Source: Rhizoclosmatium globosum (taxonomy: Eukaryota > Chytridiomycota > Chytridiomycetes > Chytridiales > Chytriomycetaceae). From it: a DNA stretch of 64,000 bases. Positions 34,682-48,100 of the stretch are shown one piece after another. The position numbers and the translations under genes were made by a program. The DNA lies in contig MCGO01000027.1 of assembly GCA_002104985.1 (NCBI GenBank), positions 1 to 64,000 on the forward strand, written 5' to 3'. How positions within the stretch are numbered: position 1 is the stretch's first letter; each line of letters begins with the position of its first letter. Under the pieces are notes generated by a model. That model made no database searches. It was not told the origin of the DNA and worked only from the letters and a program-made list of their open reading frames with translations.

Positions 34682-37600
34682 ATGTTTGTTCTCTTGGACT
34701 GTGTAGTCTGTGGATCAAGCGAGTTGGTTGAGAGTGAGAGTGATTGTTCTTGTCCTGGTTTAAGCACTGGTTTGAGTACTGGTTCAACTGCTTCAACTAC
34801 TTCAACTACTTCAATCGACAAAGGAGAAGGTGGAATAATCCACAGTTGCGGTCACTTTGAATGCGCCGATTGTGTTGGAATTAGTCTGTCGTTGGGCGGC
34901 TCGAAAGGGCGCCATTCGTGTGCTGTGTCTGTGTCCGTGTCGTTGGATTCAGAGAATGTGAACAAGAACTTGAACAAGAACTTAAACAAGAACTTGGACA
35001 AGGAGAAAGAGAAAGAGAAGGTTTCTGTAAAACCTGTAAAACCTTCTCTTTCTACAGCTTCTTCCTCGTCTTCAACTGCAACTACCCCGCCTCAATCTAC
35101 TTCAAATACACTTGATCTCTCCTCACTCAATATCCCTCACATGACCTGTCCAAATAATATCTGCAATGAAGTCCTGCTGCTTGATCCAGCAGACCTTGAG
35201 CTTGATCCAATGTATCCAATGTTCTCGTGTCCATCCTGCAAACAAAGGCTCTGTTGCGTGTGCCGATCAGCATGGAATGACAGTCATTCGTGTCTACAAA
35301 GTGTACAGAAGGATGCTGAATTGGTGGATCCAAAAGGGAAGGGGAAAGCACGCGTGTATTCCACAACTGTTGAACAAAGCTCCACTCAGTCCCAATTGCC
35401 TTCGCTTTCTTTATCCGCATCTTCTTCTGCTTCGCATTTTACTTCTTCTTCTTCATCTTCTTCTGCTGCTGCTGCATCCTCATCTGCAACAACTCATCCG
35501 GGTCCATCAACCTCAAATTCTCGAAATACTTCAGCTCAGTTAATCAACGACGATATATCCCAACATCCTTCCAAAAAACGCGCTATCGAACAAGACGTGG
35601 AAGTAATTGATGTTGATGCATTTCCAGGTTCTCAATCCACGACACCTGTTTCCAATCAAAACCAGCCCCTCATCAGTTCTTCAGAAATAAATTCTGCTCC
35701 TCAAATGGATTCCTCAGTTGTGCAACAGGACGTAGATGTTCCGGACATTGTTCAAGAAAAGTTGATGGAGGCAGTAGAGCTTGTGTCATCTGGTCAACGG
35801 AGTTCAGAAGCATTCCAAGCTATTCAAACACTTTTGAGTTCATTGGGATATGCGGAATTCTTGAATGCTGTGGTCGGATCGCCTGATGAAGATGAGGTTA
35901 TGGTATGTGATTATGTAACTATCACATTGAGCTAACTTATTCATTCTTGCAGTTTGTTTCAGAGACAAAGACATCGTATCAACCTTTGCCTCGCTCAGCT
36001 TCCGCGCCATCATCCAACAACCTTGCGTCGAGCAGTTCCCATCCACTTTCCTCATCCGAGTCATCTGTCGCAATCAGTATCAAGCCGATCCCAGTAGCCA
36101 CACAAAGTTTTTCTAATCAAAATCATCTGCGTCGCAACTACGGACCTCCTCAATCAAACATATATCGGCCTAACCCTCGACCACTGCCCACTCATCCATA
36201 CCACCATATTATCTTCACCCCAAACGCTCAACCCCCCTTCAAACAAGACTTCCACTCGATACCCCCAACGCAACTCATAACCCACCTCCTCCCACCCCCT
36301 CAATCCTCCCACCCATACCTCCTCCGCGTCTCCTACAAAGGAAACCCAACCGACAAACAAACCCTCACCCGCTACAAATCCTTCCTCACCTCCGGAACAA
36401 CAACCCACGAGTTCCTCACCTTCACACGAACCCAACACTCCACAAAGTCCTGCTACTTCATCCACCGCTCGCACCGCGCGCAGATCCTCGCAAAGACCGG
36501 GCTCGCAGGCGTGCACACGGTGCCGCGGTTCATCAAGTACTCCGGCCTGCTCCTGAACGCGCTTTCGGCGGAGGTCCAGGTGCTCACGGACGTGAGGGTT
36601 CGTGTTGAGCGGGATGTGCGGAGGAACGGGTTTTTGTTTAGTGATGGGTGTGGGAGGGTGAGTTATGATGTTGTGAGGGGGTTGGTGAGGGAGTCTGGGG
36701 GTGTGCCGAGTGTGTTGCAGGTGAGGATGTTGGGGGTGAAGGGGGTTTTGGTTGTGGATCCGCGGTTGCCGGATCGGACTGTTGTTGTGCGGCCGTCGAT
36801 GGTTAAGTTGGAGGTGTTGAAGTTGGGGGAGGTGGGGGAGGATGTGTTGGTGGAGAGTTTGCCGGTTGCGGTTTTGAATACTTCGAAGCCTATGAGGTGT
36901 CGTGGATTGAATATGCAGGTTGTTGCGTTGTTGTTGGAGAGGGGGTTGGATCCACAGGTTTGTTTTCATTCATGGTCATGTTTTATGGTTGTAATGATAA
37001 CATGCGAAATAGGTAATTCTTCGCAAAGATCGGCAATATAAAAGTGCCGTGAATCACGCTTTGGCTGATGTTCAAGCTGCATTCGACTTTCTACATATTT
37101 GTGGGTATGACACACAATTTTCACGACTTCACGACATTTTGAACCAAAGATACTCGAAGCGGGGATCTCTCAAAAGTTTTTGGGGCGAACTAAAGAGCTT
37201 GCAAGCATCACAAATTGCATCGTGGCGAAAAGGCAACTGGGACCTTAACAATCGGGCAAGAAGGCATAACGAATCTGAGATCAACTCTGAAAATCATGAT
37301 GATCCATTCTCAGATAATGATCCAGCTCGTAGAATTGTTCTTCCGTTACGTGACTCCAACTTATTGTTTGGTGTTTGTGACGATCGTGGAATCTTGAAAC
37401 CTGGTCAATGTTACGTGAACGTCGTTTTACCAAACGGCATGACGCGTACTCTGAAAGGCCGTGTTGCAGTTATGAGGAATCCGTGCTACCATCCAGGAGA
37501 TATTGTCCTACTCGAAGCTGTCGACCTTGAGCAATTTCACCACATCCACAACACTCTCGTCTTCAACACAACTGGGGATCGCCCAGACGCGGATAAATGC

Positions 37601-40600
37601 AGTGGTGGAGATTTAGATGGTGATCGATTCTTGGTTATTTGGGACTCGGAGGTGGTCGCAGACTTAAAGCCTTGCCCGGCATTTAATTACCTCCCTGAAG
37701 AGCTGACCAAATGCATATTTGATACCATCCGCAAATTAGGCGTCATACCCAAACAACCCATCAACCGTGCTGGGAACGGGAAGCGTCGTCATAACGAGGG
37801 AGATGATGGAAATGACGGTGTTTCTACCTCAGAAATGATCGACTACCTTGTATTCCATGAAGCAAAAGATACCATGGTTGCCCGCATCAATGCGCTATTG
37901 CTAGATTTTCAAAAGTTTGAGTACAGAGAGTCCGACAAGTCTATTCTGACTCGCGAAGAGCTTATCAACCTCCTCACCGCCTTATTTTCCGCAAGTGTAG
38001 ATAGTATGAGTGGAATTGACTTGGAGACTATGATCCGTGCAGTTCAAAGAGAGATTGCAAAGAACCGAACATCTGAGCTCTCGCCTTTCCGAAAACTCCA
38101 TGACGATTGCATCAAAAACACGGACGCCACAGCTCAATTCACAAAACTCTATGAAAGAAAGAGTGGCGTGTTGTTTCCCTTGTTTGAAGCCAGTGTGATG
38201 GAAGACCCTGGATGGAGTCATCCCAATTTTGTGGAAGATTTTGTTCCGAATCCAAAGGGAAGCTATGCGAAACTGACAGAGAGGCTATTGAACGTTGGGA
38301 AACGGATCCGGAAACAGGAAGTGTCGTCTTTATTGACGGCTGAAATGATGGGAGTTCTTCAGGCCCACTTAGACGATAATGCCTTCATTGAATGTGTAAA
38401 AGTGATAACAGCCCTTGAAAATTCTATAAATCGTGCATTGGATGAATTCCAGGTTTGTATTATATCCACCAAAAACATATTTTGAAGTTGAAAACAGGCT
38501 CAAGAACTCGTCGAGATCAGTATTTCTGAAAACGTATCCCTGTTTGAAAAATGCCATCAGCAACAAATCGAATTTGAGAAACTGTTCAATCGACATGCGA
38601 GTTTTGGTCGAGTTATGCGAAGTGTTTGTGATCTCGTTGAATCTCGGAGACAAAGTGGAACAGGCGATATGGCCGTTCATATGAGCGTGAGTAAGATTTT
38701 GTCAAATGAGATAGATATGCTGAAAAGGTGAGCTTGTTGTTTGAGCTTGTGTGTGTAACCATAAACTATGCAGTGAACTTCCTATTTACTCCTCTCGAAA
38801 CGAACTCATGGATTGTATCGAATCAAATAGAGTTGTTCTTATCACTTCAGCCACAGGAAGCGGGAAATCTACCTGTACCCCGAATTTTGTGGCGAACGAG
38901 CTCTTTTTCCAAGGAAACCTGTCCCCTTCAAAGCAAATCATTGTTGCGCAACCCAGACGAAACGCCACAACGTCTCTCGCCCAGAGACTTGCTCAATCAC
39001 GAAAATCGGCTCTTGGTGCTGAGGTTGGCTCACATATTGGACGGTCTCGTGCAAGGGTGAACACAGATCGAACTTTTCTTCGATGTGTGACGTATGGTAT
39101 TCTACTGCTTTATGCTCAAAAAGACCCAGAACTACGTGATTATTCCGTCATCATTCTTGATGAAGTTCATGAAAGTTCAAGTGACCTGTATTTCTTATTT
39201 GCCATCTTGAAAAAGGCACTCATGACGAACAAAGAGCTCAAAGTAATATTGATGAGTGCAACTCCCGACATGGATAAGATCATCACATTCTTTGATGAGT
39301 GTGAAGTTGTTTCGGTAGAGGGACGCACGTACGAGGTGGAAGAGTTCTTCGAGGGGCAATTGAGCTTAAACCCTGCTATATACGTCGAAGCCGCCATAGC
39401 AAAATGTATCGAGGTTCATGAACATTTTCCACTGAATGAAAATCCGGATATTCTTATTTTCCTTCCAACTAAGAAGGATATTGACGAAGCCGTACATCGA
39501 TTACGTGTGGAAACCCCAATGAAGAACCTTCATGTTTTCCCACTGCACTCTAAAATGAGTGAAGTCAAAAAGCGATTTATTTTGAATCGCTCACCTATAC
39601 ATGAGTGGGATACGTTATTGAAGTCTGACCGAGATTATGATGTAAGCCACAATTTACGTATTCTATGAACTATGTAATCACAATTTCCAAGTATCCCGAA
39701 CTTGGTCTTGTTCCGGAGGCTGTCGAAAATCTGGATTTTGTTGAATGGCAATTAGATCAAGGTGGTCTCCGAAACCAGCTGGATGTAAAGATTCCAGTTG
39801 TAAAGAATGATACCCAACGGCGAGCTATATTTTGCACAAATATTGCAGAAACATCTCTCACAATACCTGCAATCGGATATGTGATAGATACTGGACTTCA
39901 ATTTACTGTTGAAGTATCCCCCATTATGAAAATCACGGACTGCAAGTTACAGCCAACAACAAGAGCCTCTGCTCAACAGCGCAAAGGGCGAGCAGGACGG
40001 CTGGGTCCCGGAAAATGCTTTCGTCTGTACTCTGCTGATACTGCTGAGGATTTTGCGAATCAAATGTATACCTCGCCGAAAGACTTTGATATCCATCTTC
40101 TTCGAATTGTGGATATTTTTGGCGATTTGCTCACATATCCATGGTTTAAAGCTCCACGAGATTCAGAAATTGGATGGTGTTGGAGTATTTTGAACGAGTC
40201 CAACTTTGCTGAACACGATGACAAGGAGTGTAAACAAATCATACTTCCAGACGGCTCACTTGCCATGGAGCTATGTCGATGGGAAGTTTCCAGTGACATG
40301 GCCCTCTTTTTGATACGGGTCTGGAGATCCCCTCTTGCCACAGAACGCATTCGTTTACAATGCGCAACTATTGCAGCTTTCTTATCCTTTGGAACAGCGA
40401 GTATTTTTAAACCCAAATTTCGGTATGCTTTGTTTGTTGGGATGGGAGAAGTGGAAGATTTCCCAACAATTGGAGATTACCCACTCCCCTCCAGTTTTTG
40501 CAAAGCAAACATATTTATCGCATGGTTGAAGAGAGAGCCTGAAGACAGGCGGGCGTTTTGCGAGAAAATGGGGCTGTTTTCATATGGCATGGAATCCATC

Positions 40601-41041
40601 AACGAAATTCGCAACAACATATTGAAGACGATGGAAAATAGACAAGATGTTCTCGCTCAAGGCTGTACAGCGAGTCGAGTCGAGATGGATGAAGAAGCTG
40701 TCGAAATGGATGCATTTTCCAGGCAGAATTTCATTCTTGGTCATCTTGCAGCAGGATGCTTCACAAAGTTGGGACTCGTCATTAACAATGGCGATCAAAT
40801 TGCGTTTGTGAACAATGATGATCGATCAGTTGCAAAGATTGATCGTTCTGAGTCGAATATTTTTCACCCTGTTTGGAGTTGCAAGTTGGTTCTATTTCAC
40901 TCCATCCGAAGACAAGCAAACTGCCCTTGGGAACGCTTTATTGTTTCTCACATTGATCCACTTCCTTGGGAGTGGCCGCGAGACATACCTTCATCATTTC
41001 TGCAACGATATATTTCGCATTTCCCCGAGATTCCAGATTAA
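34682..41041 (+). CDS. Fusion: RBR-like zinc domain + RNA-dependent RNA polymerase + DEAH-box helicase (2,037 aa)
   Basis: Exons 34682-35902, 35953-36957, 37013-38452, 38498-38727, 38774-39641 and 39692-41041 share one frame. Residues 7-64 hold a RING-like Cys/His set (CVVC…HSCGHFECADC). Residues ~157-204 form an IBR-like finger (CPNNIC…CPSCKQRLCCVC…HSC); no second RING is seen, so this is a partial RBR. A Ser-rich linker leads to a cellular (QDE-1/Rdp1-type) RNA-dependent RNA polymerase whose catalytic loop is SGGDLDGDRF (~residue 938). From ~1300 a DEAH/RHA helicase follows: TSATGSGKST, DEVHE (a DEVH box), MSATPD, and motif VI QRKGRAGRLGPG. Such polymerases make dsRNA for RNA silencing. The helicase begins within the same frame through a 46-bp intron at 38728-38773, with no intervening stop or promoter-sized gap. 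The gene converges on GPATCH1, 62 bp away. Confidence 0.88.
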
Positions 41042-41103: not shown

Positions 41104-44100
41104 TTAAAAGAAATCAGATGCACGTGGTCGATTGTGATGTCCAACAGGCTTGCTCCGTTCTCCATCGCGATCTCTTTCTCGATCCCGCTTTGTCTCCCTT
41201 TCTCTACTATCTTTCGCATCTCTTTCGCTACGTACAACAGCAGAAGCGGTGGCTTCCACCCATTCATCAACCACCTCTTCTTCCCGATGCCGTGACGACT
41301 TCTTTTTACTGCTGCTACTCTTATCCTTCTTCCGTTTCTTTTCTTTTCCTTCCTTCTTCTTCTTTTCTTTCTTTGATGAGGACGATGATGAAGACTTTCG
41401 GTGTTTCCTCCTTCGGTCCTCGTCACCACTTTCGTCCGAAGAGTCACTCGCGGAACTGCTTTCATCTCCATCACGACTTCGTTTTATGGGAACCACTGAG
41501 GCTGGTGGTTTCTTTGATATCAAACTTGTTGCCCACGATGCTGCTTGTAGCGGTTTGGTCACAACTGGCGGCGGAGCATCGTCTTCGTCAGAGGACAGGT
41601 TTGGTAATGGAATTGCAGCAGGTTCAGCAGGTGTTGCTTTTGATGGAGAATCCACAACCATTACATCTGGGTTAGAGGGCACCGGAACAGATTCAGGCAC
41701 AGTTTCAGGGGCAGCAGAGACTGGCTGTATGGGTTCCACTACTTTGCTACGATCTTGTTTTCGACTGAAAAGTGGTCTAAATGTTGGCGGTGGAAGACTT
41801 GTAGTTGATGGAGCCGATGCAACCACAGCAGCCTTGACTGGAACAGTGGGCACAGGTGCTGCAACAGGGACAGGAGCATTTGCAACCACTTTCAAAGGAG
41901 CTTTCGCCTTTAAAGCAAATATGTTACAATGAAAGTCATTTCAACCCAAAACACAAACCTCCACAACTTTTTCATCCTCCTCAGAACTTTCATCGTCCTC
42001 AGAATCCGAATCAGCAAAAATAGCCTTAAATATATCCATAGCAGGACGAGCAGGCTCCACTTTCTCCTCTTCAACAGCTTTTTCCTCCTCCGCGACAACA
42101 GCATGAATTTTCACAGCAGCTCCATCTCGACCTGCGGGGCCAGAAACCGGAGCACCTCCACCCTCCACATAATGTATCAATTCACTCATTGCATCCTTAT
42201 TCAAAATCTCCTTCTGCAAATCCGCCTCCGTCAGTGCTTTCGGTGGAGTAGGGCCAGTCTGTTTCGGCTCCGGATACGGATTCGCAATATTAAACCGCTT
42301 ACAAACGAGTTTATGTGGCCGGAATTCAATGCTCGAGCGCGTCGCGCGTCCGTACACGCGTTCTTTGGGTTCCGTCGAGTCTTTGTCCTTTTTTGGAAAA
42401 GAGTTATTTCATAGAATCTATATATTTATATATATTATACCTTGGTAGCACCGCCGTCGCCACTGCTTGTGAACCGCGACGCCATCATTCCACTCAGGGG
42501 TTTATACATATGTGCGGATTTGCTAAACTCGAGTAACTCATGTGCAACTTCACGCGGGGTAAAATGCTGCCAATAAAGTTTAACAAACTGGCATACACAT
42601 AAAAATAAGTAGCCAAACTCACAGGTGGAAACTTGACATCCCCCTCTCTCACCCCTGCCTTCCCCTCCAAAAACGATTTATATCGTGCCTGCTTCGCCTC
42701 ATCCCCCGTAAACGGCAAAAACCCCTTCAAAGCCGCCACCGCCGTTTCTTTATCAACAGGAACAGCATCTGGTATCGGCTGTTTATCGTCCTTCTTTTTG
42801 CCACCGTCTTTTCCTGCAATCTTGGAATCAATCAAGGCTTGTAACGCGTCCTGCTGGCGAGCGGACATGTAACTGAATACGGACCGCGTGGGTCCTGCGA
42901 GGGCTTCTTCACCGAGGATTTCGCGACGTCGTTCTGCGGTTAAGTTTGGCTGTTGTTGGTTGGGTTGAAGAGGGTATGGAGTCGAGACAGCAGATTGCCG
43001 TTCGAATGCGAGGCGATGTTTTGGGATATAGTCTGCTGGTGGTTTTGGAGCGTCAAACCTTTTTTTGTTTTGAAAGAGGAGAGGGTAAGATACAATATTG
43101 TGACGAAAAAAAGAATACCATATAGGGGCAGTGAGTTGTATCGACGCAACATGGAATCCCGACAATGGTGGTTTCCCATCAAATCCAGTCCGTTCATTTG
43201 CGGTAGAATTGGTATCTGAACGTCTCTGCTGTATCACGGGTTTCTTTTTTGAAGAACTCATTCGATGCCACTCTGAGTCGTCCTCTTCATCGTCGTCCAC
43301 GATACTCATTCGACTATTTTTCAGGCCCCCAAGATTCCCAGGTGCACCTCCTCCACCATACACATCTTCATCCTCCTCTTCAAACACACCTGTTCCAAAA
43401 CCTCCCGATTTACCAAACGCATTCCTTTGCCTTTCCTGAAATAACGACGAGCCCCCACCGCTACCACCGCCATCTGCATTGCTGGAAGCATTCGGCCGAA
43501 AGACATCCGCCCCATCCCCAAACCGGTCATATCCAACCCCAAATCTGCCCACACGACCCGTCAGAATAACATCCCTGATATCTCTGGGCGCAAACAAGAC
43601 ATTCTCCGCATGCACGTCATCTTCGTCGTCTTGCTTCTCGGTAAACTTTCGTTTCGCACGGGGACCCACGCCCTGCCCGTCTCGCCAACCCATTTTCCGA
43701 AGTAAGCGAACACCGATCGGGTCTGAGGACGGGATGATCAAGTCTTGGAGAATACGAGATGCGATGGGACTTTGGTATTGTTTAAGCCAGTTAGAAATTC
43801 AAGAAGATGTTGAATGTAATATTGAAATACTCACCCATCAGATTTCTCGACTGCCTGTGTGACTGCAGCCTTTCGAGCCAATTCACGTTGGGTTGAACCA
43901 AGCGCGTCAAAATCTTGAGTGGCAGTTACTTTTTTCGCGTTGTTAATTTCCTGGCGAGTTGGGAGTGGGTAATGAGTGATAAGCAGGTTGTTGAATTCAT
44001 AATCTGGTGTGGAATCAATGAAGGAGGAGAACGAGGACATACCGCCAGATCTTCCTCATCCATGAACTGGTCAACATTCTGTTCAAACTTGTTTCGCTGT

Positions 44101-45165: not shown

Positions 45166-48100
45166 ATGGATCCGCTCGTGTTCCTTCCCCAACATGTTCG
45201 CACATTGGTAGGCTTAAACAACAGTATTCCCTTCACGTTACCCCAGGCTCTACGAGAAGACTTTGCTTTGGTATGTGTATTTGTCCACTTATCTCTCACA
45301 CCTCACATCAACTCCCTTTCAATTGATCCAGGTGGCCATTATCGATATATCCGGCTATTCGAAGCTGTCGTCGAAACTAGAAGCTGCGTTGGGAAGTGAC
45401 AGCGGAGCCAGAATAAAAGAAGTCATCAACCCCCCAATGGATCTCATCACTCAACATGTTCATCGATATTGTGGCTCTATTGTAAAATTGGCGGGAGATG
45501 CGGTCATTGCGTGTTGGTACGGAGAATCTTGACACCTGAACCCCTCCCATTCTCGCTTAAACAGAGCCGTTTAGGACACTGGACCCCGACGTCACCATTC
45601 ATACCGACACCTACCAGAAAATACTCTCCTTAAACGTCCTCCTCTGCTGCCTAGAACTCCTCGAAGTCTTCCACTCATACGAAGTCCTCGTCAACCTCTC
45701 CTCAGACCAATCCCCAACCTCCCAAGACTCCGCATCAACCCCATCCCCACCCCAATACCTCCACCAAAAACTCGCCATCCACATCGGACTCGGCGTCGGA
45801 CCCCTCGACCACATCCACGTTGGCGGAAAATCAATCCGCTCCCACAGACCCCACACAGGCCGCCGCCGCGCATCAAGCATGCCCTCTCCATACTCCCAAA
45901 CCCTCTCCCGCAGAGAATACTTCATCGCAGGCGAAGCCCTCGCCATCGCCGGCGCAAACCTAAACCTCGGCGACAGAGGCGACTTCCTGTTCCCTGAAAC
46001 CTTCCACGCAACGTTACAAGAAACCATTGGCGTAACGTGCGTCTCCAAGAACGATGCGTTTTGTATCTCCGACACGGACCCGTTGCTTGAGAAGATGCAG
46101 TTGAAGGCGTTTAAATATATCACGCCGCTTCGGAATTCTGAGATTGAGTCGAAGGAACAGAAACTCCCGCCTGCGATTGGACGGAACCCTATGTATCTAT
46201 CTCATGCGAAAGCGTATATTGATAACTCGATTGCAAAGCAGTTGGTGACGCTTGAGCATGGTGGCTTGATTAAGGATCAGCTTCGCTCCGTGTCTGTTGT
46301 GTTTATCAAATTTGGTGGATTCAAGTCGGAAACGGTTGCAGAGCCGGAAAACTTGAAACAGTTGCAGGCTTGTACTCAAGTGATTGTCGCAAAAGTGCAG
46401 GAATATGAGGGATGTGTCAGACAATTCAACTGTGATGACAAGTCATTGACAGCATTGCTCGTCTGGGGCTTAGAAGGGAATGCGCATGAAAAAGGCGAAG
46501 CTCAGGTGGCCATGATGGCTGCCACTGAAATTGCGAAAAATATGCCAAATTGTCTCACGGATCCGGAGGGATTCTCAATTGGAGTCACTACAGGAGTTGT
46601 GTTTGCCGGAATTGTAGGTAGCAAGGAAAGATGCGATAATACTGTGCTTGGTGTAGTTGTCAATAATGCTGCGAGGCTCATGTGCCTCCCAATGTGTCAC
46701 GGAACTGTTCTTTGTGACGAAGAAACTTACAAGTCAACCTCGGGTCTATTCAACTACATTACTGATATTCCTGAAGTTACTCTGAAAGGTAAAAAAAAAC
46801 CACCACTTTATTGTGCTGTGTTTCGTATCTCATTCTTCACAAAGGCGTTCCATATCCTGTAAAAATATATAATCCGATGGGAGATAGCACGGCGCCAAAG
46901 GCACTGAATGAACTGACACTAATTTCCGGCCGTGAAAGAGAAATGCAGCTGCTCGAAGCGAGTTTGGAAGTTTGGAGGTCGTCTGCCTTTGAGAGTAAAC
47001 CCAAAAACTGTATTTTGATTGGCCCTAGTGGAATAGGAAAGACTCAACTCACATCTTGGCTACAAGAACAAATTGATGATACCGAAATATTATGGTAGGC
47101 TTTTATTTTTACCAACTCAAAGTTAACTCCATTGCAGTGCAGGAATGGGCCTTGAACACAAGAGAGAATCTTTACTTTTCAGTTGGATTCGAATATTCCA
47201 TGGATTCTTGGATCAAATTACTACCAACGAGATGCTAATGGCTCAACTTGAAGACTTCCATAGTGATTCAAAAGTTACGCCAATTGATCAAACAGAGTCT
47301 GAAGGTAACTCCGACCCAAGCACTACGTCGTTCGGATTTGAGCCAATTTCCCCTTCCACTGGATTTCTGATTAAAGACAAATATGCATCCGAAATGGTGT
47401 TGAGACAGCATCGTCCCTGGAGTGGTCGTTCCGACACTTCCAAACAACCTATGCCAGTACGTCCGTCACCAGAAATTCGAATGCCAGATGATGGAATGAG
47501 CGTCACGAGTGGCGCAAGCTCAGAGCAATCAAATTACAGCTCCAATTATAAAGGAAAATCTCATTCTTTCAATGCGGGTCGATATCAAACGCCCAAAGAG
47601 CCACTAAAGTATGGAACTTTACCTGTCGAAAGGTCAGAAACTCTGGGCGTACCCATGTCAGCACCAACACAAATTTTGAAAGAGACACGTTCAGCGGGAG
47701 GCTTGTATGCTGAACCAGTTTCAGAATCCGACCTTCAAAGTGGAAATAAATATTGCCTCGAGTCTCGAAGACCGAAGAGTGCAGGTCGACCAGGGCCTCA
47801 ATCGGCTTACAATCATAATTCAACATCTGTCAGTTATTCTGGATTGCAGCTACCCCCAAGAAACACAGATATCAGCAACTCGAATATCAGTGAAGAAAGC
47901 GATTTCGAATCTGCGGAAGATGATTTCGAAATTGACACCACAGTTGCTGAAAAGTCTCAATTTACTCCTGAGAGTACCCAAAGGTTGGAATACGCTCAAC
48001 GCGAGCCTTTGAAAGATGCTTCCTCTCCGACATCTCCAACAAATAACGGATCAATTGCATCAAGAAAAATTCGCCCAGCAAGTGCAGGCTATGTTCGAAA

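Follow-up and report, generated by a model that had tools for sequence, protein, structure and literature searches.

In the window analysed, a 64,000-nt stretch at the start of contig MCGO01000027.1 of Rhizoclosmatium globosum (source assembly of 56.9 Mb in 420 contigs), a gene was found on the forward strand at positions 34682-41041 whose six predicted exons form one frame of 2037 aa, encoding a cellular RNA-dependent RNA polymerase (RdRP, aa 600-963) followed by a DEAH helicase (aa 1300-1734). The five introns were 45-55 nt long and had GT-AG borders in every case, retention of any single one of them led to an early stop, and an in-frame TAG lay immediately upstream of the ATG. According to the gene model, exon 1 (34682-35902, aa 1-407) contained a zinc-binding-like N-terminus and a low-complexity Ser-rich stretch, and exon 2 (35953-36957, aa 408-742) contained the first half of the RdRP core, starting at about 36352. 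The second half of the core and a post-catalytic region were encoded by exon 3 (37013-38452, aa 743-1222), and a linker by the joining exon 4 (38498-38727, aa 1223-1299). The gene model, Pfam matches and motifs placed helicase domain RecA1, with Walker A, DEVH and motif III, in exon 5 (38774-39641), and exon 6 (39692-41041) encoded RecA2, which contains motifs V and VI, followed by the C-terminal DEAH module (about 40151-41032). When the helicase was used as a query against the same genome, full identity was found at this locus only.

The RdRP profile PF05183 matched the polymerase half with 227.6 bits (cut-off 23.8), in two stretches that left about the first 54 and the last 116 of the 582 profile positions unmatched. 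Motif search and alignments located the catalytic DLDGD at 37610-37624 (aa 942-946). The loop GDLDGD, which the original prediction had named, was thus present at aa 941-946, and GGDLDGD aligned to RDR2, in agreement with the DbDGD pattern of such polymerases. The RdRP part could be aligned with PDB chains of RDR2 and QDE-1, and its exon 2 portion (aa 541-742) was 31-51% identical to the seven fused relatives compared.

In the helicase half, the Pfam domains DEAD (49.1 bits, cut-off 26) and Helicase_C (39.4 bits, cut-off 23.5) were detected. Walker A (GSGKST, aa 1327), DEVHE (aa 1428), MSAT (aa 1459) and motif VI (QRKGRAGR, aa 1684) were all found as predicted, and motifs I, II, V and VI read ATGSGKST, DEVHE, TNIAETSLT and QRKGRAGR, respectively. 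Motif III lay at 39252-39263, with its Thr codon at 39261-39263. The SAT form of this motif and the C-terminal helicase-associated module placed the protein among DEAH/RHA helicases; its hook-turn was GR, which is not that of a true DEAH-box (Prp type) protein. Structure modelling was applied to exon 6. A single-sequence model was set aside (pLDDT 36.6), and in the alignment-based model the C-terminal part folded like those of Prp2, Prp43 and HrpA. The RecA2 part of this model was weak (pLDDT below 50 for residues 1-57 and mostly 43-64 for residues of about 58-130), and the rmsd to whole helicases ranged from 3.3 to 10.1 Å among the matches listed; therefore, the firm structural match was limited to the C-terminal part.

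A neighbouring gene on the other strand (42497-43798), probably tail-to-tail with the RdRP-DEAH gene, encoded a G-patch protein (29.5 bits). Some DEAH helicases have G-patch proteins as partners; the adjacency may be a coincidence. An open frame at 45561-46859 on the forward strand gave a weak match to an adenylate/guanylate cyclase domain (22.3 bits, cut-off 21.9).

Relatives, their history and known helicase-polymerase fusions

At least 22 further proteins with the two domains in this order were found by three protein searches together with a domain scan; several of them were partial or lacked part of the RdRP as deposited. Seventeen of them belonged to eight chytrid genera, namely Rhizoclosmatium, Siphonaria, Physocladia, Entophlyctis, Chytriomyces, Blyttiomyces, Phlyctochytrium and Irineochytrium. 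Chytrid placement was confirmed by taxonomy look-up for six of the eight; Physocladia and Chytriomyces we take to be chytrid genera as well. The other five were two Aphanomyces proteins, the metagenome protein P0164, and one protein each from the diatom Seminavis and the dinoflagellate Prorocentrum. The number of relatives is a lower bound, because the searches scored a capped number of candidates, whose length had to be 0.55-1.75 times that of the query, and the best 120 of 146 and the best 120 of 1282 matches were listed, so that short single-domain orthologues could be missed. P0008, P0009, P0010 and P0013, although members of the query alignment, were not among the matches listed for that query. 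NCBIfam searches with P0002, P0013 and P0054 gave mainly HrpA/HrpB matches, far under the cut-off. The Phlyctochytrium bullatum proteins P0008 and P0165 had consecutive locus tags and came from contigs of equal length, which suggests tandem copies of the fusion gene.

Separate trees were constructed for the two domains. In the helicase tree (57 sequences, 21 fused and 36 others; P0001 was omitted as near-identical to the Rhizoclosmatium globosum protein and P0011 as truncated), the chytrid and Aphanomyces proteins and P0164 formed one clade (99%), and the same clade was obtained with 99% in the RdRP tree (44 sequences, 19 fused and 25 others; P0001, P0006, P0012 and P0165 were omitted because part of the RdRP domain was missing), the alignment profiles for both trees having been built from fused proteins, a choice that may itself draw these together. 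Therefore, it may be concluded that in this set the two domains were inherited together, as a unit. Of the 36 unfused helicases in the helicase tree, which were chosen among 152, the plant CCCH-finger DEAH protein P0132 lay nearest and was the sister of the fused clade (100%). In the RdRP tree, four pieces of the other RdRPs of the same genome grouped with ascomycete RdRPs (96%).

Like the chytrid proteins, Seminavis robusta P0054 and Prorocentrum cordatum P0167 consisted of an RdRP, a long linker and a DEAH helicase. However, these two paired with each other (98% in the helicase tree, 100% in the RdRP tree) and took positions separate from the chytrid set in both best trees. Two independent fusions seemed likely from these trees, but the AU test did not reject a common clade of all fused proteins for either domain (p 0.43 for the helicase and 0.46 for the RdRP), and this claim was therefore dropped. 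The helicase data rejected a placement of Aphanomyces and P0164 with the diatom and dinoflagellate proteins (p-AU 0.0006), and the RdRP result was borderline (0.059). The helicase result therefore gives the Aphanomyces gene a chytrid-like history. Both Aphanomyces proteins, P0013 and P0163, grouped with chytrids in the two trees; this may reflect gene transfer between a fungus and an oomycete, ancient paralogy being another reading.

Several polymerases with a helicase in the same chain have been described. In the accessible text of the respective papers, Dictyostelium RrpA-C are presented as helicase and RdRP in one protein (PMC3661229), and N-terminal DEAD-box helicase-RdRPs are reported from Dictyostelium, peronosporomycetes, Hydra and Nematostella, Saprolegnia being said to be without them (PMC4791657). 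All of these resemble the Rhizoclosmatium protein in uniting the two parts; however, their helicase is an N-terminal DEAD-box one, whereas that of Rhizoclosmatium is C-terminal and of the DEAH type. Fusarium Fgrdrp5 is described, in the part of the paper available, as an RdRP that bears DEXDc/AAA helicase domains at its C-terminus (PMC11237814). Dikarya RdRPs of this type, like the chytrid protein, have PF05183 first and a C-terminal helicase in one polypeptide, an order that was checked in P0055 and P0063; their helicase, however, is AAA_11/AAA_12 and not DEAH, and their RdRP domain falls in another clade. No AAA_11/12 match was found in the 2037-aa protein at E up to 1, which separates it from the Fgrdrp5 type. 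The AAA_11/AAA_12 helicase domains belong to the SF1 class. RdRPs with these domains were common in Dikarya among the matches listed (many of P0055-P0146). In P0050, an RdRP with an AAA_11/12 helicase, the catalytic motif aligned as HLDRD against DLDGD, and the polymerase may therefore be inactive.

Neurospora QDE-1 and RDR2 share the catalytic DbDGD and the core with the chytrid polymerase; to our knowledge, neither has a fused helicase. As described in the accessible parts of the literature, Hrr1 is a separate helicase partner of a silencing RdRP, and the partner of QDE-1 is a separate RecQ helicase, QDE-3 (PMC2950127). The chytrid arrangement had been called undescribed in the original prediction. 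This held for the DEAH type, which was not found in the literature by title or by the start of the abstract, most subscription papers being outside reach; it did not hold for helicase-RdRP fusions as such, which are known with the helicase at the C-terminus (Fgrdrp5) or at the N-terminus (Dictyostelium type), as far as the available texts go.

Motif III and the hook-turn in fused helicases

The fused proteins shared the helicase motifs and the fold of the C-terminal module with Prp2, Prp43, HrpA and P0132. They differed from these helicases in carrying an RdRP, in having mostly G-K/R and not RF at the hook-turn, and in having mostly lost the Thr of motif III. Across the 23 fused helicases, motif III was SAK in 12, SAS in six, SAT in two, SAQ in two and SAA in one, the two SAT sequences being the Rhizoclosmatium globosum protein and the near-identical P0001. 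Thus, 21 of the 23 fused helicases had a residue other than Thr, whereas all 152 unfused helicases, which were taken from the listed search matches and were weighted towards Prp22, Prp16 and HrpA types, had SAT. The RF hook-turn was absent from all 23 fused proteins and present in 132 of the 152 unfused ones. Both of these counts were made on all 152 sequences, and, since the fused sequences are interrelated, the replacements are not independent events. Loss of the Thr occurred in both fused clades; P0054 and P0167 had SAS, one of the Thr-less forms. The remaining motifs I, II, V and VI were intact in most fused copies, and the Gln of motif VI was kept in all 20 proteins in which this column was filled, the other three having a gap.

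According to the accessible text of the papers concerned, motif III couples ATP hydrolysis to unwinding (PMC2806949, PMC5262380), and the RF hook-turn has been described for true DEAH-box proteins (PMC5262380). The original prediction of a complete unwinding helicase was thus borne out in part: the motifs and the C-terminal fold fitted it, but because motif III was changed in 21 of the 23 fused proteins, unwinding cannot be assumed for the whole family. The altered motif III of most relatives suggests gripping or remodelling over efficient unwinding. In its strongest form, this would mean that the DEAH part does not unwind at all and acts as an ATP-driven clamp or checkpoint, which grips the template or strips proteins from it and so times the start or release of the polymerase. 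The loss of Thr seen solely in fused proteins, the coupling role of motif III and the lack of the RF hook-turn would all be explained in this way. However, the Rhizoclosmatium globosum protein itself keeps SAT, the other motifs are intact in most copies, and P0132, the nearest unfused sequence in the tree, has SAT without RF. A non-unwinding clamp is therefore a possible but rather unlikely explanation.

The joining exon and the N-terminal region

The original prediction had assigned both domains to a single gene, with the RdRP ahead of the DEAH helicase. The single frame, the Pfam scores of both domains above the cut-offs and the same order in the relatives supported this assignment, and the coordinates predicted for the joining exon, 38498-38727, were exact. 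Conservation of this exon as protein was examined in seven of the 22 relatives. Local alignment scores against P0002-P0005 were 172, 118, 103 and 97, and the best of 100 shuffles gave 48, 54, 47 and 47, respectively. The score was marginal in P0008 (55 vs 46) and did not exceed the shuffles in P0007 (35 vs 51) and P0013 (36 vs 53). Thus, the linker was conserved in four of the seven, and for Rhizoclosmatium's own clade an artificial joining of two genes is unlikely on this evidence.

The closest protein, P0001 of Rhizoclosmatium hyalinum, had identical exon 3-4-5-6 joins, with six differences in 1361 residues, and was itself a gene prediction. As deposited, it started at aa 342, within exon 1, skipped exactly exon 2 and was named as the splicing helicase dhx15. 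With exon 2 skipped, the polymerase loses its first half, so that the RdRP is partly hidden in this annotation. In Physocladia P0003, a UMPH-1 5'-nucleotidase preceded the RdRP-DEAH part, which is probably a merged gene model. The relatives are themselves predictions, and P0001 and P0003 illustrate that these can err; the Rhizoclosmatium gene might likewise be an adjacent RdRP gene and DEAH gene wrongly joined by gene prediction. This is highly improbable: the same join recurred in eight chytrid genera and in protists, exon 4 was conserved as described and was flanked by introns of just 45 and 46 nt, and RdRP-DEAH proteins were the top matches listed, the first other proteins scoring far lower (a drop from 391 to 264 bits and from 217 to 176 bits). 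Sequence comparison therefore confirmed the RdRP-DEAH fusion in the chytrid gene as real.

At the N-terminus, the sequence contained an incomplete RING-like Cys/His cluster at 34700-34873 (C7-x2-C10, C56-x-H58-x2-C61-x2-C64), which, as we read it, was without the last Cys pair, and an IBR-like zinc finger at 35141-35293 (aa 154-204), which matched PF01485 with 19.2 bits and an E-value of 0.0013, under the cut-off of 24.3 bits. A Pfam search of the 2037-aa protein gave no RING match, and CxxC occurred in the whole protein only at aa 7, 61, 183 and 191, leaving no RING2 and no complete RING1. A genome-wide IBR search listed 27 matches, and this N-terminus was not among them. Comparison of the IBR stretch with PDB sequences gave nothing convincing (best E 0.21 for RNF31, followed by 0.27 for a cytochrome P450). 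Two of the 23 fused proteins, those of Rhizoclosmatium globosum and Physocladia (P0003), had CxxC clusters N-terminal to the RdRP, several deposited N-termini being truncated. Of the partial RBR domain originally predicted, the Cys-rich character, with a weak IBR and an incomplete RING, was thus retained, but no clear RBR was present. Ubiquitin-linked control of the polymerase, which the original prediction had considered possible, or activity as a ubiquitin ligase could be suggested by the sub-threshold IBR match, the CxHxxC..CxxC part of the two proteins and a Cys-rich C-terminal stretch in diatom P0054. Both are scarcely credible given the missing RING elements, the IBR results and the occurrence of the clusters in two of 23 proteins. 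We read this N-terminus as an accessory zinc module and not as a ligase; the finger would be an optional add-on, perhaps for binding RNA or protein. The Cys-rich, RING/IBR-like stretch of Seminavis P0054 lay near its C-terminus, at about aa 2280-2450, and had no Pfam match at E 0.001. DEAH proteins with IBR domains (P0170, P0180, P0231 and P0262) were among the matches to the Aphanomyces query.

Proposed role of the fusion in RNA silencing

The reading that we favour, and regard as reasonably probable, is that of a single protein, passed on undivided among chytrids, in which an RdRP and a C-terminal DEAH/RHA motor make double-stranded RNA for RNAi, with the motor tracking along the template. 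The product would enter the Dicer/Argonaute pathway. An RdRP reads its template 3' to 5', and DEAH helicases travel along single strands in that same direction. The motor could accordingly hold the template strand and move in step with the polymerase, clearing the strand of structure or bound protein and holding the enzyme to it. As almost all relatives have a changed motif III, the motor of the family as a whole is probably adapted to feeding or remodelling the template, and the Thr in motif III of Rhizoclosmatium may permit classical unwinding too. A broader proposal, which is doubtful at present, is that the RdRP-DEAH proteins of chytrids, oomycetes, diatoms and dinoflagellates are one ancient class, spread by descent and transfer, in which an unwinder was rebuilt, with loss of the Thr in motif III, as the template-feeding or clamping subunit of a self-contained double-stranded RNA synthase.

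As far as the available literature describes them, silencing RdRPs otherwise use separate helicases, such as Hrr1 and QDE-3, or built-in helicases of other types. With a DEAH motor built into the RdRP, the coupling of polymerase and helicase in RNA silencing becomes testable in one protein, and the change in motif III is a sharp, testable oddity of the family.

Profile searches of the same genome gave matches to Piwi, RNase III and the Dicer-dimer domain; therefore, RNAi machinery exists that the product could enter. The genome also contained other, ordinary RdRPs, and these, instead of the RdRP-DEAH gene, could supply RNAi. In the accessible text of an earlier paper, RdRP seems to be missing from the Chytridiomycota representatives (PMC5796279). 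The RdRPs found in the Rhizoclosmatium globosum genome and in eight chytrid genera contradict this as a general statement. On each of the contigs C404, C10 and C166 (G000; L001-L008), two matches to ordinary RdRPs ran in opposite directions. The four ordinary RdRPs used in the tree, from which the second C404 match was left out, formed two near-identical pairs across contigs, and haplotypes or duplications are therefore likely.
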